Origin: Siphonodentalium dalli
Lineage: Eukaryota; Mollusca; Scaphopoda; Gadilida; Siphonodentaliidae
Reading direction: 5' to 3'
DNA: 64,000 bases
Assembly: GCA_032622095.1 (NCBI GenBank)
Contig: CP136068.1
Location: forward strand, 12,567,729 to 12,631,728
Shown: piece by piece, positions 33,531 through 58,143 of the stretch
How positions within the stretch are numbered: position 1 is the first letter of the stretch
Layout of the letters: every line of letters begins with the position of its first letter
The notes under the pieces: model-generated
Database searches by the model: none
Told to the model about the DNA's origin: nothing
The model's input: only the letters and a program-made list of their open reading frames with translations
Translations under genes and position numbers: made by a program

Positions 33531-33541
33531 TTATAAATGAG

Positions 33542-36058: not shown

Positions 36059-36999
36059 AAGCCTGAATTTAGTGTCTGACATTTGCAGAATGAGGTCCCC
36101 AAAATGTGAATTGAATAAAAGGTCAGCAGACTACAGTGTCCCCCGACAACATGGCAAGAAATTTTACAAAAAAATGTTGAAATTTTCTAAGTCGAAAAGG
36201 GTTAATAACTCCATAAAAAATATTAGCTATATAGATGTTGCAAATCACCAACATGTTAGGAACAATATCCCAAAGTTTCAAATCTCTACATTTCAAACTG
36301 TAGGAGGAGTTGATTACACTATGAAGGTACCCAATCTCATCCAAAAGGCAAAAATGTTCCAAATTTTCTAAGTCGAAAACCCCCCAAAAATATGGAAAAA
36401 ATGATATTTTTTATTAGCTATATAGATGTTGCAAATCACCAACATGTTAGGAACAATATCCCGGAGTTTCAAATCTCTACATTTAAAACTGTAGGAGTTG
36501 ATTACTCCATGAAGGTACCCAATCTCATCCAAAAGGCAAAAATGTTCCAAATTTTCTAAGTCGAAAACCCCCCAAAAATATGGAAAAAATAATATTTTTG
36601 ATTAGCTATATAGATGTTGCAAATCACCAACATGTTAGGAACAATATCCCAGAGTTTCAAATATCTACGTTTAAAACTGTAGGAGGAGTTGATTACACCA
36701 CGAAGGTACCCGATCTCGGACGCACGGACGGACGGACACACGGACGGACGGACGAGGGTCATTTTTATAGTCCTCCGACGGAAACGTCGGGGGACAATGA
36801 CACTATTCCGCAACGCAGTCTAGCATCACTGAATTAACACTCAGTCTGATTAGGCGTCAACTGCCATGGGAAACCTAGAAACAGATTGAAGTTCTACCGT
36901 TGAAGTTGGTGGTTCTAGCCTGCTGTACAGGGTAGCAACACTAAATTCACCCCCTGGGGACCACATTCTGCAAATGTCAGACACACTAAATTCAGGCTT
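36059..36999. mobile_element. Element bounded by ~45-bp inverted repeats, with HINE-like interior
   Basis: The left end AAGCCTGAATTTAGTGTCTG ... TTTGCAGAATGAGGTCCCC (36059-36100) is complemented at the right end by GGGGACCACATTCTGCAAATG ... AATTCAGGCTT (36957-36999; split phrase). Related hairpin arms occur at 61895-61986. The interior holds the 185-bp tandem repeats with ACGG tail. No clear target duplication was found. Confidence 0.65.
36182..36796 (+). repeat. ~185-bp tandem cores, ACGG microsatellite, terminal hairpin
   Basis: ATTTTCTAAGTCGAAAA starts units at about 36182, 36363 and 36552. Each unit has TTAGCTATATAGATGTTGC, CACCAACATGTTAGGAACAA and TTTCAAATCTCTAC. The series ends with (GGACGGAC)n at about 36719-36755 and a hairpin CTCCGACG-GAAA-CGTCGGGG (36773-36793). 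It is the third repeat family in this window with the same modular layout. Confidence 0.85.
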
Positions 37000-37700
37000 G
37001 AGAAAATAATTTTGTTTTAATTTGATAATAACAACAAGCACCATTGCTAGTGCAGTGTTTACACAAACCTGTCCAATAACATTCTAATCTCTAATCTGTC
37101 ATTCTGATCTCAATTAATGACCTGACTGTGTCTCTCTGAAACTGAGTCCTCTTGTAGATATAATATTGGCAGATATAATAACTGCTTCTGGAGAGAGGTA
37201 GATACCCTTTTGGTGACCGTATTATAAGCCATCGAATAATTATCTCCTCCAAACCAAAGTAACTAACTGCCTATCTTGTAACATTTACAGAAACTAGCGC
37301 TCGTGTCTAACACATTACACTCACGCGACAACACCTATCGAGCGGGACCCGGCACTAAGCTCGGGGTGGGGTGCAAGGAAACTTCAGACCCATAAGTGGT
37401 CATCTAAGCTCTCATCGAGTTAAGGCCGGACATATACCCTCATATGTTCGGCCGCTTGCTGCTCTGCGACTTTCTTCGGGAGGCACAGGAACGGCCCATC
37501 AAGAACACATTGTAATTATCAACTTGTGCATTCATCATTTTATCAAAATAAAATAACCCAAAAAATCATATAAAATGTAAAAAAAAATTGTTCACTGTAC
37601 AATACTTATATATATATATATATATATAGATGTATATCATGTCCTGTTCATTATCGTTCAAAATTACTTCAGCGAATAAAAATCTGAAATAACACTGTAT
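37000..37700. other. No gene; hairpin and TA microsatellite
   Basis: GGCCGGACATAT-ACCCTC-ATATGTTCGGCC forms a 12-bp stem (37424-37453) inside a GC-richer 200-bp patch that could be a SINE or LINE tail. A (TA)n run lies at about 37609-37629. Confidence 0.4.
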
Positions 37701-38111
37701 ATGATTGTTAATAATATGATTTCACCTACGTCCGTGCACGACATGGGGAAGAAGGGTGGGATAGAAAAATATACAAATTTGCAGTATCAAAACATGTGCA
37801 GAAAGAATGGATTTATATTTGTTGACAACTGTTTAACATTCCTTTCACACGGCAGGATTAGAGTAGATTTGTTCAGAGACAATTGGCACCCAAATAGAGA
37901 TGGTTATAAAGTTCTGGCATTGAATATCAAATACCCCCAGGAGGAAATGAATGAAATCGCAGTGGACATATGTGATGATCATGATGATACAGTGATGGAT
38001 CGGCGTGCAAACTTTTCAGGGGAACACCGGCAGATGTATCGGGAAATGCGTCCCAAGACATCATCTGTGGCGACCAGATCAACTGAACGAGACACGCGGT
38101 ACTGGCAATGA
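37701..38111 (+). pseudogene. ORF1 C-terminal SGNH esterase-like fragment of a non-LTR retrotransposon
   Basis: The 136-residue frame contains KNGFIFVDNCLTFLS and then DNWHPNRDGYKVLALNI. The D-x2-H-P block with GYKVLA is the last catalytic block of SGNH/GDSL hydrolases, as found in ORF1 proteins of several non-LTR families, where the esterase domain helps bind nucleic acid or membranes. An acidic region and a polar tail follow. The first catalytic block is missing here; a damaged candidate is at about 35550. An overlapping frame reaching 38280 (MGLAFGHWNINSYRHENV) may be the true ORF1 end after a frameshift. The endonuclease begins 400-600 bp downstream, as expected for ORF1 followed by ORF2. 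Confidence 0.6.
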
Positions 38112-38677
38112 GATGGGACTTGCCTTCGGACATTGGAATATCAATTCCTATCGACACGAGAATGTTCGTCAGAATGAAGAACAGTGTTTTCAAAGTGTTA
38201 GAACAGATGAGCTATCTTTTTGGTCACAGCAACTAGCACAAATTCTGAAATACATTAATAACCAACATAAACCTCAGTAGGTAACTTTTTTAAATACATA
38301 TATATCATATATCTAGATTGTTTTATTTATTTACAATATTACCGTACTAACAAATAAATTGCGTAGCAGTATAGTCGCATAAATCTATTATGCGTGTTAA
38401 CACGATTTATAATATAAGTTTATGATTCGTTTACGATAATAATTGCGCGGCTATATATTGGCCCAATTATATACGCAAAATGGTATAATTGTTTTGTTGA
38501 AACAGCGTCTGGATACTTAAAATTAACGAGGTAGACTAGTGTTGAAACGATGGTCTAAAGAGTTTAAAGATATATACAATGTGACTGGAATATATGCCTA
38601 TTTCAATTTTGACGTTCATATATAGACTATTCCCGACAGTCCTTTTCGAATATCGTTACCTATATATATATATACAT

Positions 38678-39440
38678 ATGAGCTCTCTTTCGCAAAACCA
38701 TAGCCGTGACCGGCGGAAAATTGCATATACTGCCTGGAATGCGCAAGGCTTTGTGAATAAAATTACCGATGAAGATTGCCTAAAGCATTTAGAAAAATAT
38801 GATTTTATAACGATATCAGAAACCTGGCACCACTCTGTGGATGATATAGAAATGCCAGGGTACTGCTGCTTCGATCTTAGTAGAGGCTCAAATAGTACAA
38901 TCAGGGGAGGAATTGCCTTTTATTGTAAGAATAAGTATAAGTCTTCTAGAGTATTGTAATTAAATCAATACGCAATATGGGTTGAATTTTGTGGCAGTAT
39001 CTTCAATATGCAATCGAATGTAGTATTTATATCCATGTATATTCCTCCTGCGAACTCGACTTTCTGGGCTCATAGTAGCAATTACGATTCCGTGTACGAC
39101 AGCATTGAAACACTTTTAAAAGATTGAAAGTCGGACGACTTTGTTATCTTGGGAGGGGATTTTAACTCGAGAACAGCGAAACGGTCCGATTATGTTAGAG
39201 ACGATTGCGATAGGTATGGCCCCCTTCCCAATACGTATACAGTTGATGAAATCGCTGCACGAGAAAGTTTAGATGATACAGTAAACCATTTTGGGCGACA
39301 ACTCCTCTAATTATGTAAAGCTGCGTCACTGCATATACTCAATGGAAGAACACCCGGCGATTCTTTTGGGAACTTTACGAGTTGTCAACATAATGGGTGC
39401 AGTGTAGTCGATTATATTATAGTGGGCATCGCATATTAAT
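38678..39440 (+). pseudogene. AP-endonuclease domain of non-LTR ORF2, three in-frame stops
   Basis: The frame shows AWNAQGFVNKITDED, DFITISETWHHSVDD, GGIAFYCKNKY, FISMYIPPANS, VILGGDFNSRTAKRSD and VVDYIIV. These are the ordered motifs of the exonuclease-endonuclease-phosphatase fold (the SETW glutamate, the GDFN block and the terminal D of VDY). It nicks genomic DNA to prime reverse transcription. Stops occur at 38957 (TAA), about 39125 (TGA) and about 39308 (TAA) without loss of frame. Each is one C-to-T change away from a sense codon (CAA, CGA, CAA). The usual His-containing end motif (SDH) and all RT core motifs are missing. At about 39440 it jumps to the RT C-terminus. Confidence 0.8.
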
Positions 39441-39843
39441 ATTAACAAGCTCGAATCTATTCCATGTGAAATTACACATGTTAAATTGTGTAAATCAGTG
39501 TTGGGTTTAAATAGAATGGCGTCTAATCACGCGACAAGAGCAGAATTGGGCAGATTTCCGATAGCACATGCATGATGCGATAATGAATGCTGTAAGATAT
39601 ATGCTTAAACCGTCTGAAAGAAAACCGAATATGTTACTTCGGAATTCTGCCCAAATATGCGAGGAATATATAATTCTTGATTCAATGACAATTATGACGG
39701 GCATTAATCATTCCGAGAAGCCCATATATAACCTGTATGAATTGTTCCACAAGGCCGTTATGTGCATGTATTTGGCGTTTGAGATAAGTCTGCACAGCTG
39801 CTATAATCTACTAAATATACGACCATCCCCTGTGCCATTTTAG
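39441..39843 (+). pseudogene. RT C-terminal remnant joined to the endonuclease
   Basis: HVKLCKSVLGLNRMASNHAT and RAELGRFPIAHA (39478-39571) are followed, one frame over, by AIMNAVRYMLKPSER and NLYELFHKAVMCMYL. The 'LGLNR-ASN-A-RAELGRFP' pattern is characteristic of the region after the RT thumb in many invertebrate non-LTR elements. Because palm motifs A-E are absent between 39440 and here, the copy carries an internal deletion of most of RT. It also has a frameshift near 39570. Confidence 0.6.
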
Positions 39844-40141
39844 TGAGAATGTACACGAAAACGGCTAACAAAAACATGTTTTTCTCGCGAATGTGCAACC
39901 ACCGAAACCAGAACACTTTACAATATGTTAGAAGAAAACAATCTTGCTATGAAAATGTAAAGTTCATGTAGTACCCCATGGTCTATATAACGTTAACTCC
40001 CAGCTGTAAATCCCACACAATTTCTCACGCAGCCCTCCCGGACCCTCCCCCAATTGAATGTATAGTATATTATGCCAGAGCACTGAGGTGAAAGGGGTGC
40101 AAATGGAATTATGCAAAAACATGTATTTTGTTTGATCGTGA
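39844..40141. other. No gene; flank with direct-repeat phrase
   Basis: GGGGTGCAAATGGAATTATGC (40095-40114 core) and CATGTATTTTGT recur just beyond the next element at 40367-40405 as GGCGCAAATGAATTATGC. Confidence 0.5.
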
Positions 40142-40366
40142 TTAACCCTTTGAGTGCCAGTTCCGATTTTTGTATCAATCCATATACCCTGTGCCAATGC
40201 ATTATCTTATATTGCGAGTCGACCATAGGCCTCGCATATATAAGAGAATGCATTGGCCTAACAATTTTTTTTTTTAATTTTAATAATTCATTCTTATATT
40301 CTTTAACATACTTATTTTGTAGGTTTATGGCCGATGAGATCGGCCCCTGGCACTCAAATGGTTAAA
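40142..40366. mobile_element. Palindromic MITE with nested inverted repeats
   Basis: The outer ends TTAACCCTTTGAGTGCCAG and CTGGCACTCAAATGGTTAA are complementary. The inner arms GTGCCAATGCATTATCTTAT and ATAAGAGAATGCATTGGCC pair around GCGAGTC...GCCTCGC. Partial relatives are at 21540 and 62151-62460. Flanking sequence on both sides is similar, which hints at a duplication or an older nested copy. Confidence 0.75.
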
Positions 40367-42599
40367 GCGGCGCAAATGAATTATGCAAATACATGTATTT
40401 GGTCCGATTCTGATAGGAAGGTGGTGCAGACCTGTGCAGTTGGAATGTCCCCAAGGTGGACCCTCCAACCAAACAGATGGGTCGATATTAGACTCCATAT
40501 TCTTGTCCTTGGACGGTTTTTGGCCCAGTCCGCCTCTTTTCAGAAGTAACCCCAGTCACCAAACTGTACCCAGGCGCGAGTTTGGTATTTTGAGGCCTAT
40601 CGTATTCTATACCCCATGCTGGTTTTATCAGGATTAGTTTGGTACATCTGATGGCTCACCATTATTCGACCCAGTGGAAGAACTTCATATACACATTTAT
40701 TTTATACACATTTGCAATGCGCAAAATCTTTCATTTCATATATTACAACCTATTTGAAGACTTCATTGGCCATGTAAGAATTAAAAGAGACCACTACGAT
40801 TTGTCGATCTCTCAAATGTAATGTACAATTTCCGCCTCTCACTATAATCGCACTATAAATACAAGTGTCCTTCGTCTGCGAAGAAAATGCGTACACGATC
40901 CGCGCTACAGTCATGTCATTTTATTCCTCATTATTGGATAATGAACTTGTCGCTTGACACCTCTTGCCCCCCAACAACCCGGTTCTACCTGGCAGTCAAA
41001 ATTGGGCTCGTCTATTAATAATTTACGCAGTAACTTTTTTAACCACGTCGTTTTAAGAAAACTGTTTATAGAAGAGTCGACACAGTCGGTATAGTGAAAA
41101 ATGTAAGTAAGATTTATTTGTTGATTATATATATATATCGTTTTTCGTTTCCAGCTAACATGCAACATATATCATGATAATAATAATATATAGCATTTGT
41201 ATAGCGCTTCATCCCTGGTGTAGCTCGAAGAAAAAACTCAGAAAAAGGTCCAGTATTATCTACATGTTCGAGAACAGAATCCCATATACGACTTAATATG
41301 ATGTGCTTTCGTTTCCATCCAACAAGGATAGCCTCCCTCCTAATATATTCCGTAACATGTTCCCATAGGTTACACGGATTTTTATGAAATTTTCCACATA
41401 TGTTTACTGGTACTATGGACGCAATATGTGAGATTCATATTTCTGTGAGTGGCGTTTAGTGGCCACAGTAAATGTGTTTTTCCGTTGACATGTGTATTCG
41501 TGTAAGATGCTGTGAGCCATATTGGGATGTCATGCATCGCATGTTAACCAAATTTAGGGATGGACCTCCTGCACGCTGGCTGTAGCCCATTTAATTTCCT
41601 CAAATCAACGATCCATCTTGGGATTATTTAAGTCCGATTATCTGCGATATGGACATCACATCAAAAGGCAGTAAAAGTGAAAGAAACAACGTAATGACTG
41701 TGACACAAGTTTGATTTTTCCAATAATAACATTCAACTCTGACATATGGTTCCTAGATCTAATGGATATAATACACAACTCATTAACGGTACGCGCCACC
41801 AATAAGGCCTGGGGTCAATACTATGAACAATTTTATACCTGTAAATACAAATTGTATTTATTAATTTGTAATTACAAATTTGTGTTAACTATCACAGTGG
41901 TTTCATAGTACAGGGAAATTTTAGCCGTATTATTGTAATACCTTAGACTGGACGAGAGGTGAAACCCTAAAAGGCAGCTGTAAAACTTAGAAAAAACTAA
42001 CTCCCCACTCTGCTCCCATGCACATGTTATCAGTGTTATCTGAATACCAGTTCAAATTAGACGGACATGCATATAGAGCTAAAATAACTGACAACAATTT
42101 ATATGGGGAAGTTACAATGCGTGCTATCATATTGTGATTATCACTAACGCCAGTACTATGAAACGATGAGCTAACAAAATCTCGCAAATTTCACAAAGAT
42201 CTACTGCTGATTATTGTAGATTGCTTACGGACAAACCTTTGCTTGTGAGTGATTCACAATATATTGAATCACGGCGGGCCAAAGTTACAAAAGAAATAAC
42301 CAATCATAAGTTGAGAGGTGATCGCTTCTCAGAGCTATCCAATCGGTTCACGGATTGCTAAGTTGATGACCACTTGTCTGCGCAAGTTAACAATTAAACG
42401 GTTGGTTTGTAGTGTGTGTTTGTAAGTACAAGTCAGTGTAATAATAATGAGTACTACAAACAATTTGGTATCATTGTTTTTACAAATTACAAATTTACAA
42501 TCATTCAGTTTGTGAAAATAAAATATTATTTTGATGGTATAGCATTATATATATTGTGACCATCCTATTATTTCAAACTGATCCGCTACTCTTATCATA
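40367..42599. other. No gene seen
   Basis: AT-rich, with a palindromic ATTTGTAATTACAAAT word near 41868. TAGCATTTGTATAGCGCTTC (41191) resembles a widespread invertebrate repeat tail. No exon or element boundary could be fixed. Confidence 0.35.
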
Positions 42600-42992
42600 A
42601 CACATCGAGGCAGTAACGGGGCTCCATTTTATCGGGAGGGGGTGTATCGAAACAGGGACGTGCTAATGGTGTCGGTTATAGGAGTGGTGCGGGGGCCCCG
42701 GGGTCCAGTCGGTAGTGCCAGGTGCATTACACCGTCACAGGCCGTCCATCGCTGACGAAGCTGGTCCAACCCCGTCATATGGAGGGTGACCGGAATCGTG
42801 TATCTGGGCAAGTTTGTCAGTTGCTTTCCGGGGGTCGGTGGTTTCTACACGCAGTGGGACGATTTCTCGGTGAAATCAAGCCTCTGCATGGTCTTTCCTC
42901 CACCCGTAAAATTCACAACGTCGTGTGTGGCCTAGCGATAAACGATAGTGAACGACGATAAACCCTAATAATAAACCAAACCAAACCAATAG
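42600..42992 (-). repeat. Probable SINE-like dispersed repeat
   Basis: Read on the minus strand it starts TTGGTTTGGTTTATTATTAG and passes a GGTGGAGGAAAGACC block, ACCGAGAAATC, a GTAGAAACCACCGACC block and a GC-rich end. The order recalls a common molluscan interspersed repeat (GGAGGAAACCGGAGTACCCG type), recognised from memory only. The GC content exceeds that of its surroundings. Confidence 0.4.
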
Positions 42993-43851
42993 GAGTGTCA
43001 TTTTATAATTTCAAACTGCTCCGATATCTTATAATATATCTAGATATGGACGTGGCTATAGGGGCTCAGTTTGGCGACGGGGTGTCCATCCTATAATTTC
43101 CATATGCACCCTTTGAACAAAAAAATGCCTATAAATTCCACATAACGATGGAATCCTATATCAAGAGGAAAGTATTTTTATTTTTCTACGCTGATAACAA
43201 AAGTTAGTCAAACGTTTTTCCTCAGGCTGACTGACTTAGTTCAGCCAACATGACTGAGGCATAACATTAATCAAAATTACTAGGGTGATGTTAGTCATAA
43301 CGACTAAGAAATGGGGACTTTTCTTAGTCAATTGGAAGGCGTAAATTAAAGTTGCTGAATTATGTGCAAATAATTCCAATAATTGACCAAAGTTACTAAA
43401 AATATTTGTGACTAACACTAAGTTAGTCATATTTAGTCAATATGTCCAATCCAAGGGGCGGGGGTGCACAACTTACTGTTACAGCTTGAAAATCAGAAAC
43501 CAACCGGGTAAACAATTACATTTCACAGAAATAGAAGTTTCTAATTGAGGGGTGGGGAAAAAGTTGGATATCGACGTTGGCGCATCGAAGAGAGCATCTT
43601 GCTACGTCACTGCATTTATGGTCTAGTCATTTATGAAAACTGTGCTTGCATCTTCGTATTCATGTCCTTTACCGTGACCAAATGCATTCGCGTCAACGAT
43701 TGGAACTCAAAGGATAATCCGCCCATGAACATGAGTATCATTTACCTCGCAATGCATTCTTGAGCGAAAAATCATACTCACATTGGGAACAGGCGTCATT
43801 TTTATCCATTTGTCATTTATAAACTATACTTGATAAGACAACAACAACGAA
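42993..43851. other. No confident gene; upstream of the Myb/SANT ORF
   Basis: TTAGTCA and its complement TGACTAA recur about ten times between 43200 and 43445 (for example TTAGTCATATTTAGTCAAT), a loose short repeat. No promoter element stands out. Confidence 0.45.
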
Positions 43852-44310
43852 ATGCCTCTAACAAAATACCAAAAGGCAGTATTTCTGGAGGAAGTGAATA
43901 CAAGAAAAGACATACTATTTGGAAAGTTTTCTCCATCGGTCACCAGAACAACAAAAAACGACGGTTGGAAAGAAATACACAGGAAACTGACTAATTTGGG
44001 TGCCGAAATCACGGACTTTAAATATTTGAGAGATGTGACATGGGCGAATTTAAAAAGAGCTACAACAAAAAAGAACGATGACTGTAAAAATCAATCTGGG
44101 AGTGCTGGATCTGATTTGAGCACTGAGAACAATGCAGTTCTGGATATTATCGGAAGGGAGTCAGCTGTTATTTCCCCCGTTGACGTGCCCGATACACCTG
44201 TCGTGTTCGAGCAAGAGGATTCTGAAGAGACTGTGGCAACAACATCAGAACAACAAACTGTTATTCAGGGGGATCAGGGGGATCCTTTAGTGACTGAGAT
44301 TCAGATTTGA
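43852..44310 (+). CDS. Myb/SANT-like DNA-binding domain protein
   Basis: An intact 152-codon frame from ATG 43852 (context ACGAAATGC) to TGA 44308. Residues 2-75 (LTKYQKAVFLEEV, then KFSPSVTRTTKNDGWKEIH, then YLRDVTWANLKRATTKK) match the pattern of the Myb/SANT-like (Pfam Myb_DNA-bind_5) domain: three helices with spaced Trp/aromatic residues and a basic third helix ending in NLKR. Residues 95-120 (NNAVLDIIGRESAVIS) resemble the short motif after this domain in NAIF1-like and Harbinger-associated proteins. The tail is acidic and Gln/Glu-rich. The role is probably DNA binding, either as a nuclear regulator or as a domesticated transposon-derived factor. It is shorter than typical family members, which are usually above 200 residues. 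It lies 428 bp upstream of the duplicated-exon gene on the same strand. No good phase-0 donor was seen that would splice it to those exons, so it is probably separate. Confidence 0.7.
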   Translation: MPLTKYQKAVFLEEVNTRKDILFGKFSPSVTRTTKNDGWKEIHRKLTNLGAEITDFKYLRDVTWANLKRATTKKNDDCKNQSGSAGSDLSTENNAVLDIIGRESAVISPVDVPDTPVVFEQEDSEETVATTSEQQTVIQGDQGDPLVTEIQI

Positions 44311-44376: not shown

Positions 44377-44737
44377 ATCATCGAAATACCAAATTCATTA
44401 AAACATCTACCTTGGAACCACCTGACTGATTGGTCTGGAGCCCGTCGGGAGGGGACTTGTTGAGCTGGAGGAGGGGTTGATCAGTAGTGTACAGTTGGCA
44501 ATTTCAAGGTGGATTTTCACCAAGCTACATACTTGAAGTCTCTCTAGCCACATATCCTGTTTAAATCTACTTCTTTTAAAGTGATTATGAAAAGTGCTGA
44601 CTGTTTTGTCTCCAGAGTCCCTGTCTTATCACTCTTTGCAGTCTGGTGAGCGACCCCACACCGAAAATTGGTAGATAAATAATAATAGAAAATTGCGTGA
44701 CCGTGTTTATTAATTGTTTTTATTCTTTGCAATTTAG

Positions 44738-44824
44738 GTATCAAAAGAAACCGACGAAAATGGAGTAGTGCCTCTCAGGACAAAGACAGTGCCAGAGCGG
44801 TCGGTGTCCAACTCAGTTCGTCGT
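44738..44824 (+). CDS. Duplicated mini-exon a (29 codons)
   Basis: Bounded by TTTGCAATTTAG and GTAAGTTATAA. The exon is 87 nt, phase 0 at both ends, and encodes VSKETDENGVVPLRTKTVPE followed by nine more residues, a polar Ser/Arg-rich stretch ending RR. It is identical to mini-exon b except for the third base of the first codon (GTA/GTC, both Val). No fold or domain was recognised, and the low-complexity charged character suggests a linker. Phase 0 fits the downstream exons at 49220 and beyond. The upstream partner exon is unknown. Confidence 0.7.
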
Positions 44825-45262
44825 GTAAGTTATAATATTATCGTCGGTAATCGAGCAACTAAAAACACATTAAAACCATATTAAGGTGCTGGGATCGTTT
44901 TACTTCATGTTATTGATGATTTTGTGACGATTAAATTGGTAATCACTTCTCACAACTCAGAAATGATATCAATGTCTAATATATAGACCAGGGCCATGAT
45001 GACTAAATTTTAGTAAAACCAACTCAATGGTAAATCAACACAGAAAAAATATGCCAGTTACTGACATTATTATTCTTACCTCATGCTCGTAACAGAAATA
45101 TGTTAGAGAAATAAGTCTTATAAATGGAAGCTCAATTCATCATTGTAATTAAATGAATATTATTATAGTTTTCAAATGCTCGTAACAGAAAATAGGTAGA
45201 GAAATAATAATAGAAAATTGCGTGACCGTGTTTATTAATTGTTTTTATTCTTTGCAATTTAG

Positions 45263-45349
45263 GTCTCAAAAGAAACCGACGAAAATGGAGTAGTGCCTCT
45301 CAGGACAAAGACAGTGCCAGAGCGGTCGGTGTCCAACTCAGTTCGTCGT
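45263..45349 (+). CDS. Duplicated mini-exon b (29 codons)
   Basis: The same 87-nt exon as a, with identical protein, acceptor (TTTGCAATTTAG) and donor (GTAAGTTATAA). Downstream intron sequence differs from that of exon a at about 9 of 135 positions, while the exon has one silent change. That contrast is what constraint on the protein sequence would look like, though the numbers are small. Because it is a whole-codon cassette, including or skipping it would not shift the frame. Confidence 0.7.
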
Positions 45350-45705
45350 GTAAGTTATAATATTATCATCGGTAATAGAGCAACTAAAAAACACATTAAA
45401 ACCATATTACGGTGCTGGGATCGTTTTACTTCCTGGTATTGATGGTTTTGTGACAATTAAATTGGTAATCACTTCCCACAACTCATTAATAATTTGCAAA
45501 CATCCATATATATATTCAATATTACAATGCATTATTGTAATTAAATGAATATTATTATAGTTTTCGAATGCTTACGACCGAAATTTGGTAGAGAAATAAT
45601 AATAAATGGACACGTTTGTATTGTCGATGCTCAGAGAGTCATGGTATATATATATATACAATTGCGGATCGTGTTTAGTAAGTGTTTTTATTCTTTGCAA
45701 TTTAG

Positions 45706-45759
45706 GTCTCAAAAGAAATGGACGCTAATAGAGTACCTGTCGAGACTTGTTTGAACCAG
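45706..45759 (+). CDS. Duplicated mini-exon c (18 codons)
   Basis: 54 nt between the same acceptor and GTAAGTTGTG. It encodes VSKEMDANRVPVETCLNQ. The first half matches exons a and b; the second half differs (ETCLN against LRTKT), and the exon is shorter. It is phase 0 at both ends. This is an older or divergent branch of the same exon family, paired with d. Confidence 0.7.
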
Positions 45760-46080
45760 GTAAGTTGTGCATATATTGTGAAATGATATCAATGGCTAAT
45801 ATATAGACCAGGGCCACGACTAAATTTTAGTAAATTGAACTCACTGGTAAATCAACACAGAAAAGAGTATGCCAGTTACTGACATTATTATTCTTACCTC
45901 ATGCTTGTAACAAAAATTTGTTAGAGAAATAAGTCTTATAAATGGAAGCTCAATTCATTGTTGTAATTAAATGAATATTATTATAGTCTTCAAATGCTCG
46001 TAACCGAAAATTGGTAGAGAAATAATAATAGAAAATTGCGTGACCGTGTTTATTAAGTGTTTTTATTCTTTGCAATTTAG

Positions 46081-46134
46081 GTCTCCATGGAAACGGACGA
46101 TAATAGAGTACCTTTCGAGACTTGTTTGAACCCG
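46081..46134 (+). CDS. Duplicated mini-exon d (18 codons)
   Basis: 54 nt between TTTGCAATTTAG and GTAAGTTGTG. It encodes VSMETDDNRVPFETCLNP, differing from exon c at five of eighteen residues. Its upstream intron is closest to that of exon b, showing unequal exchange among units. The following intron is interrupted after 46187 by a TIR element. Confidence 0.7.
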
Positions 46135-46187
46135 GTAAGTTGTGCGTTTATTATGAAATGATCTTAATGGCTAATATATAGACCAGG

Positions 46188-48295
46188 GGCCTGTTTCATG
46201 AAGCAAGGTCATAAGATTATCTTAAGATGGACTTAATCTAAGATCTAAGGTGGATCTTATGATGTAACTTTTCCGTTTCAAGAACGCGTTTCGCAAAACA
46301 AGATTAAGTCCTACTTAAGTAGTAAGTTAAGTTCCCGCTCATTTAGACTGGTTATCGACAATTTTCTACAGTCCGGAACAAAAAAATGTGGGCTTGTGCA
46401 ATCTTTATGTACGACATTGAGAGGTTGTCGAGAAAGAGCCGAGTCCGAGTTGACATTATTGTGTGACAGGGATGCTGGATAACGGCTGGGGTTGGTGTGG
46501 GCGAATCAGCGCATGTATCTTAGTGTCTATAGTCAGTGGCCTTATATTCGCATATGGATCTTAGACTTGTATGAGTTCCACGATGTGAATTCGAACATGA
46601 GTACATCGCAGGCTCTTAAAATGACGAGCTTTGCGTTTACTGACGAGTGGCGGCGTCAGAAATAAGACAATATAATTATATGGATCGATGCATGACTGCG
46701 ACCATGCATTCACGCCGAGTTAATCCACTGAGAGCAAAGATCAGGCGGCGATTATTTTTATGTGAGCCGACATAACTCGGCGATGTCATCAGGACACGCA
46801 TATGTCATTTTTCGATTCAAAGGGAAATGGAAAATATTTGTTAGAGTAACTTTTTTATTATTTGTATGCAGATGTTTTATGCGGTTGTCATACCATGGAT
46901 ATATATATAACTACGTTTTCATTAGCACACTCGTATTAAGGGGTGTCATCGTTACGGGTGTGTATATCATATATACAGTATGCTGTACAACGGTCATCCC
47001 ACCCCTGCAAAAAAAAACATGAAAAAAATTTGGACAGCCTTGAAAATCACGACATATGGGCGTGGGCATAAACTCAATAAATATAATATTCTCTATAGAA
47101 AATTGTCACTATTTCTAAAACATATTTTGATAAAGAGCGTTTTTGTTACCTTTCCTATATGACATATCTGCTTTGTAAACAGCCGACAGAAAGTATGAAA
47201 GAGGAAAGAATCAATACATTAATTGATCTCATTTTACCCCATCTCCCCACACACATATGGAATAACATAGAATAGATTGTGAGCTTTGAACTAGGCCATA
47301 ATTCTTATCAAAAGTTTAATTCGTGGGTAATACAATTTTATAATATATATTATCTATAGGTCACATACACAGCTGATAATTGACTATATCCTACATTCGA
47401 CGAGGCTCGGGGTGGCTAGTTGGTCTCTGTTGGGGGGGGGGGCGGGGGTACATCGTGCAATTTCCAACTGCACCGCCCCTTAATTGAAGCGGGCCAAACT
47501 TCCATGTTCGCGAAATGCCATGGCCACCCCACCCGTTGGATTTAAACTTTCCAATTGGTATCTCAAGTATTCCAACAGTTCGAAATTTCTAACCTGACTC
47601 CCCTAAAGTTGGTGATTTTCGGTTGCTGCTGTTTGTCTAAAACAACACATTCCTTTACTAGTTAGAAATTCAAACAATTGAAACCTATATATAGTGTACG
47701 ATTAATGTTGTTCTCAGGCATGAAATTTCCAATTGCTAAACATTTTGACCAAAGTGTGTGTGGGGGGGGGGGGGGGGGGGGTAGACAACACACAAACCCC
47801 ATTCGCCACGTCCCTGCTCTGAATTGTTTTTACCAAACTAACCCTATGGTTATACGGTGGGGGGGGGGGGGGTTGCCCTCTCCAAACTTTGGTTTTGGAA
47901 AGTTTGAGGTACCAGTTGGAATGTTTAAACCCAAAGATAATTTGGTGTTGTTTAAGGGGTGTAGTTGGACATTTCGAGGCGAACACCACCTCTCACTCTG
48001 TAGCCACGACCCTGTATACCAGACGACGAATTGCCCACCCAGACAATGTACAGATATCTCCGTAATTTGCAAAATAACATAGGCCGCCATACTTGTGATC
48101 GATATGCCACTTATCACGTTGGTCTTAACTTTAAGATTATCTTATGACACCTCACAGCAGTCTTAAAGTTAAGACCAAAGTTAAGACCATCTTAAGTTAA
48201 GACCTTGTTCGTGAAACTCACTTATGACTGAAGTTTGAACTTATGACCATCTTAAGTCCCAACTATGTCATAAGTTGCTTTCATGAAACAGGGCC
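46188..48295. mobile_element. 2.1-kb TIR element inside the exon array
   Basis: Left end GGCCTGTTTCATGAAGC and right end CTTTCATGAAACAGGGCC are inverted repeats. Further inside, AAGATTATCTTAAGATGG and CATCTTAAGTTAAGACC words occur in both orientations. Sister introns read GACCAGGGCCA-GACTAAATT without interruption at 44990 and 45808, giving the empty site. A CAGGG/CCAGGG duplication of 5-6 bp flanks it. GGGCC-GTTTCA ends recall PIF/Harbinger-type MITEs, but those usually duplicate TWA, so the superfamily is left open. No transposase was seen. G-runs lie at 47432-47442, 47762-47781 and 47859-47872. Confidence 0.8.
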
Positions 48296-48560
48296 CAGGG
48301 CCATGACTAAGTTATATTAAAATCAAATAAATGGTAAATCAACACAGAAAAAGAGTATGCAAGTTATTGACAGTATTACTCATATCTCATGATAGTGTAA
48401 ACGCTCGTAACATAAATTTATTAGAGAAATGAGTCTTATAAATAGAAGCTCAATTCATTACTAAATTCATGACTAAATTTTATTAAAATCAAATCAATGG
48501 TAAATCCACACAGAAAGGAGTATGCCAGTCACTGACATTATTATTCTTACCTCCGGATAG
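48296..48560 (+). repeat. Remainder of the interrupted array, exon-less units
   Basis: After the element the intron unit continues (AGGGCCATGACTAAG, GGTAAATCAACACAG, AGTCTTATAAATAGAAGC) and a further partial unit follows. No mini-exon is present before 48560. Confidence 0.8.
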
Positions 48561-49219
48561 TGATCCTGTGTAGAATATGACAACCTCTTCATGATGATAT
48601 CTTCGTTGCGCATTGTGTAACATGTTTTATGTTCTACAGATCCCACTGTCACCTTCTAGTATATATATATAGTCATGAAGGTGGAGGGCAAAAAACGCCA
48701 TATCCACCAAGGAAAAATAAAATTATCAATATATATTGACATAACATAAAATTATCAATATATAATGGCATAACAATTATAAAATGTAACGGAAACAATT
48801 TCCAAAATGCTCCCCCGGTCCTCACGGGGTGAGCAGTGATAGACAAAGGAGATAGACTTAAAGGGGTGGGTGGGTTGGGTGTAAATAAAATCTTCTACAT
48901 TTATGAGTTCTTAAATTATTTCAAGAGAAGATTTTTTCCCAACCTTGGAATTGTAGAAATGGCGTTTCAAAGATTTGTGTGCGCATGCGCAAAACTGGAA
49001 ATCGACACGTCTTGTTTCAATATTGTCATACCCAAAACCAATGGTGTATTTGACTACTGTAGAGACGGATCGCTTGGAAATAAATGCGATTATTTCGTAA
49101 TCGTGTATTTATATATTATATTGTCTTTATTTATTCAACTAAATATTGAGTAATTTCATTTCAACTATACAAGTCTGTTCTGCTTTCAGAATAATTCACA
49201 CCCTTTTATTATTTGTTAG
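48561..49219. other. Intron sequence, no repeat recognised
   Basis: Open frames here (for example 48836-49153) lack splice logic linking them to the neighbours. The acceptor TTATTTGTTAG ends at 49219. Confidence 0.4.
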
Positions 49220-49301
49220 AATTACGCAAGATATGCAGAATATGATCAAGGATGTGCGGACTACTATAATTGGGAGCAAGGCAGTGGTGGGCAGTCAGTG
49301 T
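49220..49301 (+). CDS. Exon e of the multi-exon gene
   Basis: Acceptor ATTTGTTAG, donor GTAAGTTG, 82 nt. It starts in phase 0, matching mini-exons a-d, and ends with one base left over. It encodes NYARYAEYDQGCADYYNWEQ and then GSGGQSV, a Tyr/Gly/Gln-rich stretch. No domain was recognised. The tyrosine-rich composition suggests a disordered segment. Confidence 0.65.
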
Positions 49302-49720
49302 GTAAGTTGTTAAATAATTGTTTTATGACATTCCAGTGTCGTGGATTTACAAACAGCAATATTCCCGCCTTTTTTTTATCAATGATATAAATCATAATGA
49401 CCATGTAGAATTTCATCGTTTTAAAAGCATATGATTGGCTTATAAGCGACTCGAGGGGTAACAATTTCTCTCAGTCGTCACGAGGAGTACACTAACAATC
49501 ATATAACAGATGTGCATGAGCATATAAATAATAACTTTTGTAGACCCTAACTTGGTTTATTTATGTCGGTTTGTTTCAAATGCGACTTCAATTTCCTATT
49601 TTATTAATGAAAACAATTCGTTACATTTGGTAATTTATGAACAAGTACATGTGCTCAGATTTCTTTATGTTAAAATGCCCATACACTGCCTAACACAAGT
49701 TTATTGCTTTATTATTCCAG

Positions 49721-49876
49721 CGTCTGCAGTGGGCAATGGCTATGGCGCAATTTATGGGCCCATTGAAAACAATATAAATTATTGCCAGGCATGTGTTGCA
49801 TACCAAGACAAAATATCGTCGTTGGAAAAGGAATTGGCTGACCTGAAGAAGACCACATCAGCACCTGGTGTCAGTG
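49721..49876 (+). CDS. Exon f, C-x2-C plus coiled coil
   Basis: Acceptor TTTATTATTCCAG and donor G|GTGTGTATC, 156 nt. It begins with two bases that complete the Ser codon left by exon e, and ends with one base over. It encodes SAVGNGYGAIYGPIENNINY, CQACVAYQD and KISSLEKELADLKKTTS. The last part has Leu/Ile heptad spacing typical of a short coiled coil, and the CQAC pair just before it could bind metal or form a bridge. This layout is seen in front of several invertebrate chromatin or DNA-binding domains (BEN-type proteins among them). No BEN domain itself was found, so the product is left unnamed. Confidence 0.75.
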
Positions 49877-50304
49877 GTGTGTATCTGTCTAGTTGGCAGT
49901 TATTTTCGTTGATCTACATTTGAGTAGTAATCCGGAAAGAAAATTATATATTTATTTTGTGAACTAGTTAAAACTGTAATGTAGTCTGGGCAATTTGTGT
50001 CAATTCCATAGAACTATAGTGCCGCCGTTTGCACTCAACAATTCACAATCGACACTGAACGTCATAATGCTACAAACAGGCAATGGTTTGTGCGAGTGAT
50101 ACGATTGTCAAATTCATTGCTAGTATGTATAAAATAATTTACCAAACGCAATAATCATGATTTATTACACGCACTATCAATAATAGAACCACAATAATTT
50201 AAGTTCATTTCAGTCAGTAATATTTTGCAATTATTATGAGGCATATAAAGAACTCATATTATTTAAATCCATTAAATAAACTGACAATATCTATACAAAT
50301 TCAG

Positions 50305-50513
50305 GTACGCATCTCCTCAATGACATGAAAGATCTGATAAGGAAGTATGACAGGGTGCAGACTGATATTCAATTACCATCTTATACCACAACACCACCAC
50401 GCCAGATTCGTCTTGGGATGCAGCATAAAACTCCACCCACACCTGCAACAGGAGTCGATGTGATAGAGTCTGTGACTGAGTATCAACAGTACTTTCAACC
50501 CGGGGAAGATAAG
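50305..50513 (+). CDS. Exon g of the multi-exon gene
   Basis: Acceptor TACAAATTCAG and donor AAG|GTGGGC, 209 nt. It starts with two bases completing the Gly codon from exon f and ends in phase 0. It encodes THLLNDMKDLIRKYDRVQTD, a second helical stretch, then PSYTTTPPRQIRLGMQ, HKTPPTPATGVDVIESVTEY and QQYFQPGEDK. The proline/threonine-rich linker and the phases across e, f and g make a real gene likely. The next exon was not found before 64 kb. Read-through stops within 20 codons. Confidence 0.75.
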
Positions 50514-50754
50514 GTGGGCACAATATGCAGATACGAATACAGGAAATGGCCAATATAATAATGAATGCATAATTCATAGTGATGGTACTTTGCAGACGAT
50601 AAATCTATTTTTATATATCGTGGCGGAACTGTATTTAGTCACCTATTATCTTGTTTTGACCACCATTTTTTTTTACAGTGTGCAATAATGCTAATTCTTT
50701 CGGTATTGATAAGAACAATATGAAATGAGCCAGACTGTGAAATTGATAATTTAG

Positions 50755-51072
50755 TACTCAGACGCTATGCCAACTTGGGAAATGTAGCATTCTACTAACA
50801 TTATCGAAATTTTCAAAGAAATCGACCATACCACTCCATCGTCTGAACTTCGCCCAATTGTAAATATTTACATCTCGATTCGGGACGCAACTATCACCGA
50901 TAATCTAACACAATGATTTCTCCATCGAGTGTCATTGCATTTATTTGATATATAAGAATGACGGTGTGTATCGTCAATTTGGATTAATATTCGTAACAAA
51001 TAACTACTTTGAGCAAGAATACATATCAATTTCTAATCGATCACCATACCAGAGTGTTTCACATAACTTTAA
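50755..51072 (+). repeat. Dispersed ~320-bp repeat, copy 2
   Basis: Partner of 19655-19975 in the same orientation. The shared blocks include ATTCTACTAACAT, ACCACTCCAT and GATATATAAGAATGACGG. It lies in the putative intron after exon g. Confidence 0.75.
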
Positions 51073-51104
51073 TATTTCACATCCCCTCTCTACCATTTCA
51101 GGCA

Positions 51105-51299
51105 CCACAACACCAGATGCATCCGCCGCTTTAACCTTCCACCTCATCCTCTCAGAGACGCCAAATACACCTATTGGAAACAGCAAAATACCAAGACAAT
51201 AAAGCAGACCAAGACACTGCCATCAACCCCTACCATATCAACGACATCACCAACACCCATACAGATTATCCATGTTACAGACGACGGGATGTAAGCTAT
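51105..51299 (+). other. Exon-like open fragment of unknown identity
   Basis: After CTCTACCATTTCAG a 64-codon frame reads RRFNLPPHPLRDAKYTYWKQ, then a Thr/Pro-rich run and IIHVTDDGM before TAA. Composition is coding-like, but the acceptor phase does not fit the phase-0 end of exon g. It could be an exon of another gene, a terminal exon joined through an unseen exon, or a retroelement ORF1 piece. Confidence 0.25.
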
Positions 51300-51509
51300 C
51301 TGAGAGACGCCCAGATAGCCCATCCCGTCCCCACACAGCACTGACCCCTCCCAATGACAACAACAAGACACAAGACAAAGAACAAAGAACAAAGAACAAA
51401 CCACCTACCACCAACAGCTTCGGACCTGCTTCCTGCTTCGGGGACATGATAACCAACAACGCTCTTCAGCGACAAACCAGAATCCAACAAGAAGGTTGTG
51501 CCCTACCAA

Positions 51510-52089
51510 GGGATCTACTAAAAGACGGGACGGGACGATTTTCCGGGACGGGACGGAGCGATTTGTCTAAAAGACATGAAAATGTGAACATAATGCTAGT
51601 TTTTCTGTTAAGATTTTCGACCGATTTTCGTTCGATGGAATGGAGATTTTTCAAGAATGGAGGTGTCATCATCCCGTCGATAAAAACACTACTTTTACCA
51701 CCAGAAACAAGTTCAAACTTCTATTTTACTATTTAGTATATATTAGACAAACATTTTCTGCAATAATCCGTCACCCAAACATGAAAATGTAAACGAAATA
51801 TGACTTTTAGTGTTTAGATTATCGTCCCAGAAGTGATAAATTTCCTTAAGTTCGACGCTTCGTTATTCGAACGGCCACCGTTCAGCATACGCTTAATTTT
51901 ATCGGGAAAACACCATATTCGTATAGAGTAGATACCAATAAACAAGTTGAGACCATGTTTGTGCCTCTAAACTCTTTCATTTCCGAATAAAATGACTTTT
52001 AAATATTCGTTCCGTCCCGTCCCGTCTTTTAGACAAATCGTTCCGTCCCGTCCCGGAAAATCGTCCCGTCCCGTCTTTTAGTAGATCCC
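51510..52089. mobile_element. MULE-like (Mutator-type) MITE with 9-bp target duplication
   Basis: The ends GGGATCTACTAAAAGACGGG and its complement (to 52089) form terminal inverted repeats of about 66 bp with one mismatch, built from GGGACGGGACG blocks. CCCTACCAA occurs at 51501-51509 and 52090-52098, a perfect 9-bp duplication. Long TIRs with a 9-bp duplication are characteristic of the Mutator superfamily. The 580-bp body is AT-rich and has no transposase. Confidence 0.9.
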
Positions 52090-54165: not shown

Positions 54166-55779
54166 TAAATTGAGAAGGTAGTTTTTCTCCTTGAATAAGG
54201 CGACAGATTATATATGAAGTATAACTCGCAAGCCAGCATGTCGACCAAATGGACTGTCTTCTTTCTTCACATTGAACATGCACGTATAACAAAACTCCCT
54301 CCATATCAGTTGATAACTGTATATTGTATGCCCCAGTCGTCACAATATTTGTGTCCACTGAGCTCATCTGCTTCCACATTCTCCTCTCAATGTATCACAC
54401 ACTATGATGCTGCCGCATAATCGATGGAATTGTGCATTATTGGTGGAACGTGGCCCTTTTGGTAGACCAAGTGTGGTAACTCTACTGTTATAATGACACC
54501 AATCGCAAATCATTTGGTCCAAGAGCATGCAAGATTGATAACTCTAAAGTTGTTGGACCACGAATACATGAATTATGTGTCTACGCATTGCTAAATGGTA
54601 CAATCAGGGGATGTGCACTGCATTATAATCGGCAATGATTTTCTACATAGTGTGATGCTATTTATTAATTTAGAAACATGTTTCAATTAAGTACGGTACG
54701 GTAGTGTTAATATTTAGAAAATGATGAGGTATTTTGTCATAAATATATATAATTCACTAGTATACTCGTCACGTGTGTATAAAACTGGCTGCAAAATAAC
54801 ATGCATGCACTGTGTAGATAATTTGCAAAATAAAATGTCTAATGCAGTACACATCGCTGGATAGCACCATTTAGCGAAGCGAAGCGTAGAAAAACAAGTG
54901 TATGTGAGGCCGCACTCCCGATTAATGTACATAATTATATCTCAGATGGATACATCATACATGCATATAATATGCATGCATAGTTGCATACACACGAATA
55001 TTGCAGAAATCACGCAGGCCTATAAGAATTGCCCATGACTGCAGGCGTTGGAATTTCTGACAAGATTGTTTCTAAAACAATATAACACAACAAAAAATAA
55101 ATTTTTATTTGTTTTGTGCGATATTTTCTTTAGAAATGATCTTTTCAGAAATACCTGTGATAAAATATAGCGGAGCGCGTTACAAGCTCCTGTGCATGAT
55201 TCAAGCCATACAATGTCTCTAATGAAAATTTCAAAGTAGTTTTATTAACATAATGTATAGTGTACGTATATACACATAAATACAACATATCGGATTTCTA
55301 TTAACTTAAATATGCATAATTCGGTCATAAATGGGAAAACTTATATAAATTGCCTAAATTTTGGCAACAAATACAATCCAATTTCAGGAAGAAAAAACAA
55401 ACCGAAATGCCAACATTTAAGGAAACTATGTCGAATTTGTCGGGAAAATTTCCCGAATTTTGAGGCTTACCTATTTTGGTGAGGGCATTGATCAATCAAC
55501 TGTGGAGGAAGCAAAATATTTAAAGTTTCTCCGCTATATATAAATTAAATCATATTAAGTGCAATATTGTGTTGTTGATATTGATTTGTTATGAATATTC
55601 CATGTATTTATTATATTATTTATTATATAGTCTTGAAAAGCAATATATTATAGTATTATATGTGAAATTGTTTTGTTACTTAAGCCAGCTGCATGGTATT
55701 TAATATATTTAACCTGTCGAAAGTTAATTAATCTGTACTGTTCTGCATCACTCGACACCTTCGGACACATGTGCGATTT
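54166..55779. other. No gene seen
   Basis: AT-rich spacer with CATGCAT/TGCATAT words near 54960-54985. No exon or element ends were recognised. Confidence 0.4.
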
Positions 55780-56030
55780 TGTCTAACGTAGAACTAAGGT
55801 AGACATTTTCTAACATAAAGCATACGTGAAATTTTATAGTTCTTTTAATGGGGATTTTCTAAGGTAGAACTACTGTGCAGTCTTCTAAGCTGAGCACACG
55901 TGAAATATGTTAGTTTTATAGCTCCGCCCATCTCACTTTTGACAGTTAAATTTCGACATTAGATCGTCGGTGACCGTCTTATAAGAATTCAGGTTAGATC
56001 TAACTTAGTTTTATGTTAGCCGTTTTTGGT
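55780..56030 (+). repeat. Degenerate copies of the 33.1-kb repeat words
   Basis: GTCTAACGTAGAACTAAGG, TTTTCTAAGGTAGAACTAC, CACGTGAAATATGTTAG and TTAGATCTAACTTAGTTTTA echo the 101-bp units at 33.1-33.5 kb. The relationship is tentative. Confidence 0.4.
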
Positions 56031-57465
56031 GAGGGTAGTTTCCCCTTTTCTGTTGAATACGACACAAATATATTGTTTGACTGAATTTGCGGGCGCGGCC
56101 ATGTTTATGTACCAAAAGCGGAAGTTCTAACAGGGGAATTCCCTATGTAGTCGCTATAGTGTAAAAATAGGAATAACAGAAACTGACGATTTATGCAGTT
56201 TATATTTCCTATTTTCGTCAACATCACGATCAACGATCAATGATCAATATTTTTTTTTTTATGTCATCAGGTGGGCTTGTAAAGGATCGGCAGCAAAAAA
56301 ATAACATGAAATTTCAATTTTTTTTTTTTTTTTAAACGAAAATTTGCGGTCGGTCGGATCCGCAAACCATCTTATAAAAAAAAAAGGCCTAATCGTCGTT
56401 TCCATGGCCACATAGTGACTCGGCGACCTAGTCGCTATATGGCCTTGAGTAGATCTGGGAGTGGGACGAGCTGGCCCGCCAACACACCAAAATGTGGCAA
56501 CAATATCAATGACCCCTGAATCTGAATAATTTCAACGCATGGCCTTTTAGTTTTATGCATTTCAGCGTTTAATTGTATCGAGGAGGTCAGTTGTACTAAC
56601 TTACTAAGTAACCTAATTTCGCATCAATGACAATGAATTATATTGAATAGAATTAATTGAATGTTTTCACGCGGAAAACACTTAAATATTATAATATATA
56701 AATTATAATACAGCCTATTACTGTATTAGTATTACAGTAAATTATACTCACTTTGTGATCATCTTGTTTCAAGTTCGATCTGTATCTGTATGTTGGTCGG
56801 TGTAGGAGCCTTGATTTGGCTGTAGCCTGTAGGATCACCGTTGGACGACTTACGCTGTTAATGTTGTTGTTGATGTTAAATCACATGCGCTGGCCGTGTC
56901 CTCCATGCAGATCATGCAGGTGGTTCCATTCAATGATTGTTTTGACAAAGAATGAGTTTTTTTTACTGTTTGTCCTTATTGTTTCATAGGAAAGCTTCAA
57001 CTAGTTATAAGAGGACGAAAGTCTTGTAAATATTCTTAGATCTATCTTCTATTCAGGTTGAAATGAAACTCAGTGAAATTTGCCCGCGTGAATTAGAGTT
57101 TGGCATCCGCAGGACACCTGATTCTCAAAGAACACAGAATCTTGAGTGACAGCAAAATAAAAATTTGGCAAAATGTATTATCCCCGACACGGAGTATGAC
57201 CTTTACCTTTATGTGCAGAGCCAATCAGAGCACGTCCATAGCACATGTGCCCACCGGGGCCTATGCTTAAGCCATTCTATTTTTAGATACTGAGTTATTT
57301 GGCAACGTACTTATTAAGCAGAACACCGGTATGGTGGATTTGTGCAGAAGGCTTCTTGGCAGGATCAAATCGTGATAAATATTGCCAGGAATTGTTTGGT
57401 CCATCGCAATAGGGCGTCAGAGCTCTGTTTGTTGCAAGCCGTTTATTTGTAGATATTTCTAAATT
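56031..57465. other. No gene seen
   Basis: Contains poly-T/poly-A tracts (about 56249-56260, 56318-56333 and 56377-56386) but no recognised exon or transposon boundary. Confidence 0.4.
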
Positions 57466-57853
57466 AGTATTTCCCCAAAAACCTCAAATGATACAAAACA
57501 CCCAAGACTAATAGTCTAGAGTCGTCAGTTAGTTAATCCGATTACCTATACCGCTTATATAAGCACATAAGCCGCTTACACCTTTTAATTAGAGCCCGCC
57601 GTTTACACTTTATAGTGTGTTTCAGAACGAAAAAGTTGAATAAAATCAATAAATTTGTGAATTTAAAAACAATTCAAACGTTATTGTATGCCATGTCCCA
57701 GCCCGGACATATACATCAAATTTCATTAATATCCATTGAGAAACAACGGACAAAACGCCATATAACACCCCGTTTACACCTTTTATTTGGAGCCGGCCTC
57801 GGCCTCGGCATACACTTTATAGTGTGTCCCCATTTTGGTGCCTAACGAAAGGC
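57466..57853 (-). repeat. Inverted partner of the 31.6-kb repeat
   Basis: The reverse complement of 31596-32170 with two instead of three units. It shares CCTTTTAATTAGAGCCCGCC-type, CACTTTATAGTGTG, TTATTGTATGCCATGTCCCA and ACTAATAGTCTAGAGTCG phrases. Distance between partners is about 26 kb. Confidence 0.85.
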
Positions 57854-58143
57854 CCACATTCGCCCTATCCACACATATTAACCCCACCACTGACCGGACA
57901 CCAGAAGTTGCATTATTTGATCGACAACTGACCTAACATGGGGTGGAATTTGGGATAGCATGACAATCTGCGGGACGGGATTTTCAAATTGCGTGGGACG
58001 GCCGATATCTCGAGGAATACAGCGCGTAGAGGGCTCCTTTTGGTGTCTCACGAAAGGTCCACATTCGCCCTATCCACACATATTAACCCCGTCACTGACC
58101 GGATACCGGAAGTTACATTATTCGGTCGACAACTGACCTAACA
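57840..58143 (+). repeat. Tandem duplication, ~203-bp period
   Basis: ACGAAAGGCCCACATTCGCC ... CGACAACTGACCTAACAT occurs at about 57846-57940 and 58049-58143. Between them lies the GACGGCCGATATCTCGAGG phrase also found at 31580. Confidence 0.85.

Follow-up and report, generated by a model that had tools for sequence, protein, structure and literature searches.

A size-variable array of mini-exons in what is very probably the second gene of a large CACTA-type transposon of Siphonodentalium dalli

Why do four short exons of whole-codon length follow one another behind a common splice acceptor in the genome of the scaphopod Siphonodentalium dalli, and to what kind of gene do they belong? The exons lie in a stretch of 64,000 nucleotides (nt; GCA_032622095.1, CP136068.1 12,567,729-12,631,728), hereafter the window, to whose positions all coordinates refer unless a contig (C1, C3 and so on) is named. 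The original prediction, made from this stretch, was of a multi-exon gene that grows by copying an exon-intron cassette. Our analysis makes it very likely that the mini-exons form the repeated central part of the second gene carried by a large animal CACTA/EnSpm transposon with CCC termini and a target duplication of 2 base pairs (bp). The parts of this gene recognised in the window are the following.

44738-44824, + strand: mini-exon a, 87 nt, phase 0-0, peptide VSKETDENGVVPLRTKTVPERSVSNSVRR
45263-45349, + strand: mini-exon b, 87 nt, phase 0-0, peptide identical to that of a
45706-45759, + strand: mini-exon c, 54 nt, phase 0-0, peptide VSKEMDANRVPVETCLNQ
46081-46134, + strand: mini-exon d, 54 nt, phase 0-0, peptide VSMETDDNRVPFETCLNP
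49220-49301, + strand: exon e, 82 nt, phase 0-1, an aromatic, acidic piece
49721-49876, + strand: exon f, 156 nt, phase 1-1, coiled-coil-like by eye
50305-50513, + strand: exon g, 209 nt, phase 1-0
51102-51344, + strand: terminal exon h, after TACCATTTCAG, phase 0 as g ends in 0, stop codon TGA at 51342-51344

The acceptor TTTGCAATTTAG occurs exactly at four sites in the window (44726, 45251, 45694 and 46069, all on the + strand). With at most one mismatch it is found 6 times against 1.17 expected, a number reached in 1 of 100 shuffles. GTAAGTT follows directly 3' of each of the mini-exons a-d. The predicted mini-exons of 87, 87, 54 and 54 nt, with one acceptor, GTAAGTT donors and phase 0 on both sides, proved exact to the base, and the phases 0-1, 1-1 and 1-0 proposed for e, f and g agree with their lengths of 82, 156 and 209 nt in a script check of borders, lengths and phases (lengths modulo 3, from a to g, of 0, 0, 0, 0, 1, 0 and 2). 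Mini-exons a-d translate without a stop, as do e, f and g when joined. The introns between cassettes measure 321-438 bases, and cassettes a and b are 94.8% identical over 309 bp, intron included. The 54-nt form is 33 nt shorter than the 87-nt form, which leaves c and d with 11 residues fewer than a and b; their sequence differs as well. The cassettes arose by copying, so the four shared acceptors do not count as independent evidence, and lengths divisible by three with phase 0 throughout are largely owed to a single ancestral exon. More independent are two observations: the difference between the two forms is itself a multiple of three, and the whole pattern is kept in 33 of 34 cassettes at nine places in the genome.

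These places were located by searching for the acceptor and exon start with at most two mismatches, a pattern which more diverged cassettes would escape. Thirty-six matches were obtained, 34 of them at the nine places below; those on C6 and C9, each with two mismatches, look like chance. A complete open exon followed by GTAAGTT is present in 33 of the 34 cassettes.

Window: four cassettes
C1:168.07M: six cassettes
C4:2.77M: six cassettes, one of them cut off
C3:51: two cassettes
C3:61: two cassettes
C3:36.9: seven cassettes
C3:200.7: four cassettes
C3:13.8: two cassettes
C8:188.75: one cassette

The last cassette is of the VSMETDDNRVP type, that of d, in all eight places with at least two cassettes, and the first is of the VLKE type in six (C1, C4, C3:51, C3:61, C3:200 and C3:13), the exceptions being the window, whose 5' part is lost, and C3:36.9, where the array as found opens with a 54-nt cassette. 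Copy number, at one to seven units per place in the nine places found by pattern, speaks against a satellite. Downstream of the array, intron sequence of the cassette recurs with no exon, within 48295-48562 (48295-48459 and 48468-48553), with related intron stretches at 44988-45140 and 45808-45959; the exonless repeats are perhaps cassettes that have lost their exon.

Sequence of a larger repeated unit continues beyond the array at eight of the nine places, C8:188.75 matching only near its cassette. In the window this unit is a transposon copy with both ends:

33066-56035: whole CCC-type CACTA/EnSpm copy, 22,970 bp, with TA on both sides, an internal deletion and nested inserts

Its left end, CCCGTACAGAAAC at 33066, was set by comparison with the copy at C3:51. 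The right end, GGTGAGGG, is sharp at 56035: 11 of the 14 loci scanned are alike up to this point and have differing flanks beyond it, the other three loci not covering that end. Exact end words occur 37 times (right 25-mer) and 32 times (left 24-mer) in the genome, in which backwards-read control words of both ends have no occurrence. When 15 left and right ends were paired by hand, using strand and distance, 14 pairs showed a 2-bp target duplication (TA/TA in the window, AG/AG around the 96-kb copy on C1); by chance, two bases would agree in about one pair out of 16. The paired copies span 1.9 to 96 kb. Read inwards, the termini are CCCGTACAGAAAC on the left and CCCTCACCAAAAAC on the right; CCC is common to both and the rest is loosely alike, a short and imperfect inverted repeat.

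A transposase accompanies these ends. In the C3:51 copy, an open reading frame (ORF) antisense to the array matches Transposase_21 (L025:4036-5022, 43.9 bits, cut-off 28.6) and DUF1258 (48.2 bits, cut-off 33.1), and a second ORF matches DUF4218 at 20.2 bits, below the cut-off of 27. An insert of about 3.4 kb interrupts the transposase in this copy and splits the two ORFs. On C1 the two transposase parts adjoin without the insert, and likeness to C3:51 ends shortly after; an uninterrupted transposase was found in neither C3:51 nor C1, the two copies examined. The transposase of C3:51 reads leftwards and the array gene rightwards. The subterminal word CTAACATA occurs four times on the left and three times on the right in the outer 400 bp, compared with twice in the inner 31 kb, and none of 937 random pairs of inner stretches was as extreme for any word. 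The left copies of this word are not independent, since three of them recur at a spacing of about 101 bases within a tandem repeat. CCC ends, a 2-bp duplication and Transposase_21 together place the element in a group already known, the animal TRC branch of the CACTA superfamily.

Element ends are crowded on C3, which makes up 13.5% of the assembly and holds 21 of the 37 right and 17 of the 32 left words (nominal binomial probabilities of 8e-10 and 1e-7, to be read with the possibility that the ends are non-independent, some lying close together); many are at 10-64 Mb and 136-141 Mb. Two copies on this contig, C3:25419174-25438949 and C3:25489045-25508820, both measure 19,776 bp end to end, lie 50 kb apart in opposite orientation and have different target duplications, AT and TT.

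What of the remainder of the array gene? Like the cassettes, f is a symmetrical exon; e and g are asymmetrical. Six sister copies have an additional exon upstream of the array, which ends in phase 0, contains the basic stretch KKRTPKRR and is open in five of the six. Exon g has a diverged paralogue of 44% identity at C3:200321037 that keeps both splice sites, the proportions of synonymous (pS) and nonsynonymous (pN) differences between the two being 0.644 and 0.324, respectively. Beside this paralogue, at C3:200313000-200319500, open frames repeated about 3.6 kb apart resemble part of a long terminal repeat (LTR) retroelement. Among copies, indels inside e and g measure 3, 12, 6 and 3 nt, and an intron indel beside f measures 5. 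The alignment of exon h comprised 11 copies, one of which (C1_163) covers the end only; h is open in seven of the ten covering copies (C4a, C3_51, C3_61, C4_122, C3_60, C3_57 and C3_138), its translation is identical in C3_57 and C3_60, and, C1 aside, its indels not divisible by three are all located after the stop. We judge the coding evidence for the upstream exon and for e-h to be fair.

Several observations weigh against our interpretation. The coding evidence for the mini-exons themselves appears weak: pN/pS is close to 0.65 in the 87-nt class (0.052/0.080, 10 distinct exons) and in the 54-nt class (0.066/0.103, four distinct exons), and their divergence of 0.036 compares with 0.054-0.057 in adjacent aligned intron (13 distinct 87-type cassettes, C8:188.75 left out). 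A larger contrast (exon 0.045, flanks 0.13) was inflated by non-homologous flank and is superseded by the aligned-flank comparison. Individual exons are also damaged or irregular. The upstream exon of C1 carries 1 nt extra, and the acceptor of this exon is CACTG in C3:51 and C3:61 and CACAG in C1, C3:36.9, C3:200 and C3:13.8; exon f of C3_63 has lost 1 nt; exon h is broken in the window (TAA at codon 11), in C3_63b (a stop) and in C1 (2 nt lost). The joined protein rises above no Pfam, NCBIfam or PDB threshold, giving weak matches only. The gene's first exon was not found. A candidate for it, the Myb-domain ORF at 43837-44310, was rejected, being part of another repeat which ends at 44267. With regard to the element, one of the 15 end pairs, that of C3_63, is mismatched (TT/TC), and both ends surround the array at only four of the nine places (window, C1, C3:51 and C3:61). 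C4:2.77M has the right end only, and no element end occurs in the stretches fetched around C3:36.9, C3:200.7, C3:13.8 and C8:188.75; a left end at C3:200702766 is misplaced for the C3:200.7 array, being on its wrong side, and was left unused.

Weak selection on the mini-exons leaves room for neutral copying of the array, with the cassettes as intronic repeats that multiply by recombination and are either outside the mature messenger RNA or harmless in it. The wide range in copy number and the repetition of similar intron sequence, exonless, at 48302-48562 would suit such an account. We nonetheless consider it unlikely, given that 33 of the 34 exons keep an open frame, donor, acceptor and length divisible by three, that the 87-nt and 54-nt forms are separated by exactly 33 nt, and that phase 0 is shared by the end of the upstream exon and the start of exon e, so that the cassettes fit between the two. 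If the mini-exons are instead expressed, their symmetry and whole-codon length would permit every combination, and two classes of differing length and sequence might be used mutually exclusively or combinatorially to produce protein variants, much as in micro-exon genes. The peptides of a and b are identical, however, and a choice between them therefore changes nothing; array size, moreover, differs between copies, which a regulated choice would need to tolerate. Inclusion of all exons is as easy as choice, because the introns are 321-438 bases long and the phases are 0-0 throughout. Regulated choice among cassettes may thus be regarded as a rather doubtful reading.

Large plant CACTA elements carry host exons or gene pieces, and the array protein belongs to no known family, which raises the possibility that the element is the mere carrier of a host gene or captured fragment. 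A single-copy host gene was rejected, as the region is repeated with sharp ends. A genome search with exons f and g, conducted exon by exon in six frames, returned 16 matches (35 candidates, all scored), and all of them lie in element-matching DNA apart from C3:200321037; no intact host version was among them, at a sensitivity which distant paralogues may escape. We regard capture from the host as very unlikely.

The second gene of the transposon, our preferred interpretation, also bears a record of how cassette number changes. At C3:51 and C3:61, the intron before the second and last cassette is a hybrid with an identical pattern in both: of 11 markers, aligned positions at which the C1 intron before cassette 2 differs from the C1 intron before the last cassette, the first 7 match the former and the next 4 the latter, and the switch falls within about 60 columns without differences. 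Such a switch is the footprint of homologous recombination between introns of different cassettes. Judged by the C1 layout, one exchange step would have removed four cassettes; the alternative, that C1 is the expanded form, is less simple. Because the flanks of C3:51 and C3:61 differ, the joint predates at least one of the two insertions. At C3:36.9, three cassettes spaced at 526 bp (4035, 4561 and 5087) share two replacement changes, which points to recent local copying or conversion. These changes in number were compared among copies within one genome. As each exon is a multiple of three and of phase 0-0, an exchange adds or removes linker units of 18 or 29 residues and leaves the frame intact.

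We propose a gene which would run from the upstream basic exon through one to seven cassettes, each an 87-nt or 54-nt exon with its intron, to e, f, g and h; beyond the coiled-coil-like piece, the predicted product finishes in a polar stretch. Its exons would be spliced together, most simply with all cassettes included, and such inclusion would probably provide different element copies with linkers of differing length; unequal homologous recombination between introns would account for the gain and loss of whole cassettes. The product may be a TnpA-like accessory protein for the subterminal repeats, a role suggested by analogy since the joined protein passes no family threshold. It is tempting to speculate further that the element tunes its DNA-binding accessory protein by recombination, array size setting the spacing or valency between the basic N-terminal and coiled-coil parts to match the spacing of the subterminal repeats. 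Though we hold this to be improbable, it would, if true, mean that a selfish element carries a frame-safe, recombination-driven length dial. The transposon copies are in any event natural replicates, one gene in the same genome with 2, 4, 6 or 7 cassettes, and allow direct tests of how exon number changes and of whether the number of repeat linkers matters for a partner of a transposase. One recombination joint has already been narrowed to a stretch of a single intron.

The window holds a composite and damaged copy of this element, assembled from the following pieces.

33066-41811: left arm, 99.3% identity to the C3:51.23-51.26M copy, with a nested fragment resembling a long interspersed nuclear element (LINE) inside
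41802-44267, + strand: foreign repeat piece, 99% to C3:102.34M, with a Myb_DNA-bind_5 ORF, replacing the middle of the element
46189-48294: nested insert of about 2.1 kb in the d-e intron, inverted ends GGGCCTGTTTCATGAA by eye, edges uncertain by a few bases
54400-56035: right arm, common to many element copies (49 matches listed, 40 candidates scored)

Relative to C3:51, the middle of the element, including the transposase, is absent. The Myb_DNA-bind_5 domain (PF13873) of the foreign repeat scores 37.5 bits (E 2.2e-9, cut-off 21.7), and the sequence common to the window and the C1 and C4 copies starts at 44270. From there to 46188 the window is 99.6-99.7% identical to these two copies, which are continuous over the nested insert (window 46188 joins 48295); beyond 48295, identity is 99-100% onward, in C1 as far as 56035. 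The left end of the nested insert matches at many other places in the genome. Stretch 44700-46300 has at least 69 genomic matches (40 candidates scored), with near-identical stretches on C1, C3 and C4. In exon sequence, a-d correspond to cassettes 3-6 of C1, the two leading cassettes of which are absent in the window. So is the upstream exon: the C1 alignment is first collinear at 44270, and a 20-base word of this exon occurs on neither strand of the window. As the upstream exon is lost and the last exon contains a stop, the window copy is unlikely to make a full protein. The suggestion of a gene growing by cassette copying has thus gained paralogous places with one to seven cassettes and one change in size with a recombination footprint, and requires amendment in that the gene belongs to a transposable element and is represented in the window by a copy with neither an upstream exon nor an intact last one.

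Other repeats lie in and around this copy. The LINE-like fragment in the left arm (37680-38956) has weak GDSL-lipase and endonuclease/exonuclease matches, below the Pfam cut-offs, and 37771-38600 matches many places in the genome. The g-h intron contains a repeat of some 340 bp (50737-51072) that is very common (7678 candidates at first look) and has a relative at 19636-19976. Behind exon h lies an insert with inverted ends (51574-52089). Copies of part of it follow one another at intervals of about 205 bases, in either orientation, at C1:27.73-27.75M, C1:270.05M, C7:40.88M, C9:136.84M and other sites, an arrangement that looks as though a small transposon had given rise to satellite-like arrays. 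Outside the element, one on each side, are inverted copies at 31519-32175 and 57460-58043 (97% over 260 bp). A 199-codon open frame of YISIYFCLWRYRLPG-like repeated units on the minus strand at 62827-63426 is presumably a tandem repeat.

How does this system compare with those already described? For the animal TRC elements of the CACTA superfamily, the account of DeMarco and colleagues gives Transposase_21, a suggested CCC core and a 2-bp repeat in 7 of 14 copies (PMC1636069). SmTRC1 of Schistosoma mansoni, with relatives in Aedes and Tribolium, is like the present element in its Transposase_21, CCC at both ends and 2-bp duplication, and in copies truncated to several sizes; spliced transcripts have also been reported (PMC1636069). 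Its copy of about 4.7 kb with 54-bp inverted ends is unlike the 1.9-96 kb and very short ends seen here, as is the presence here of a separate multi-exon gene on the opposite strand with a mini-exon array (PMC1636069). Plant CACTA elements (Spm/En with TnpA, Tam1 with TNP1, and the 20.5-kb Tgmt* of soybean) similarly combine a transposase with a poorly conserved multi-exon second product, subterminal repeated motifs and large size (PMC2613891, PMC4158355). TNPA and TNP1 are said to have little sequence in common and yet to bind subterminal repeats (PMC2613891). Plant elements differ in their 3-bp duplication and CACTA ends, and both products of Spm and Tgmt* derive from one alternatively spliced unit; the sections of these accounts at hand describe no cassette array (PMC2613891, PMC4158355).

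Outside transposons, the micro-exon genes (MEGs) of schistosomes offer a parallel in their series of small symmetrical exons, which can be used or skipped without loss of frame (PMC4350168, PMC10526429). They are, however, the worm's own genes, encoding secreted proteins with exons of 3-81 bp, whereas we describe a transposon gene with near-identical exons of 54 and 87 nt whose number varies among paralogues (PMC4350168, PMC10526429). Tandem exon duplication is widespread, with a cited figure of about 10% of animal genes that have such exons, and the doubling of an exon in tandem within a gene is shared with the present case (PMC9013439). The latter differs in being recent, repeated, size-variable and inside the gene of a mobile element. 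The open-access literature searched, as far as its accessible parts extend, contained no account of a transposon gene with an array of exon-intron cassettes that varies in size, which is not proof of absence. To the extent that these sources cover the field, the kind of element, tandem exon duplication and small symmetrical exons are already known, and the apparent novelty lies in the size-variable cassette array in the gene of a transposon.

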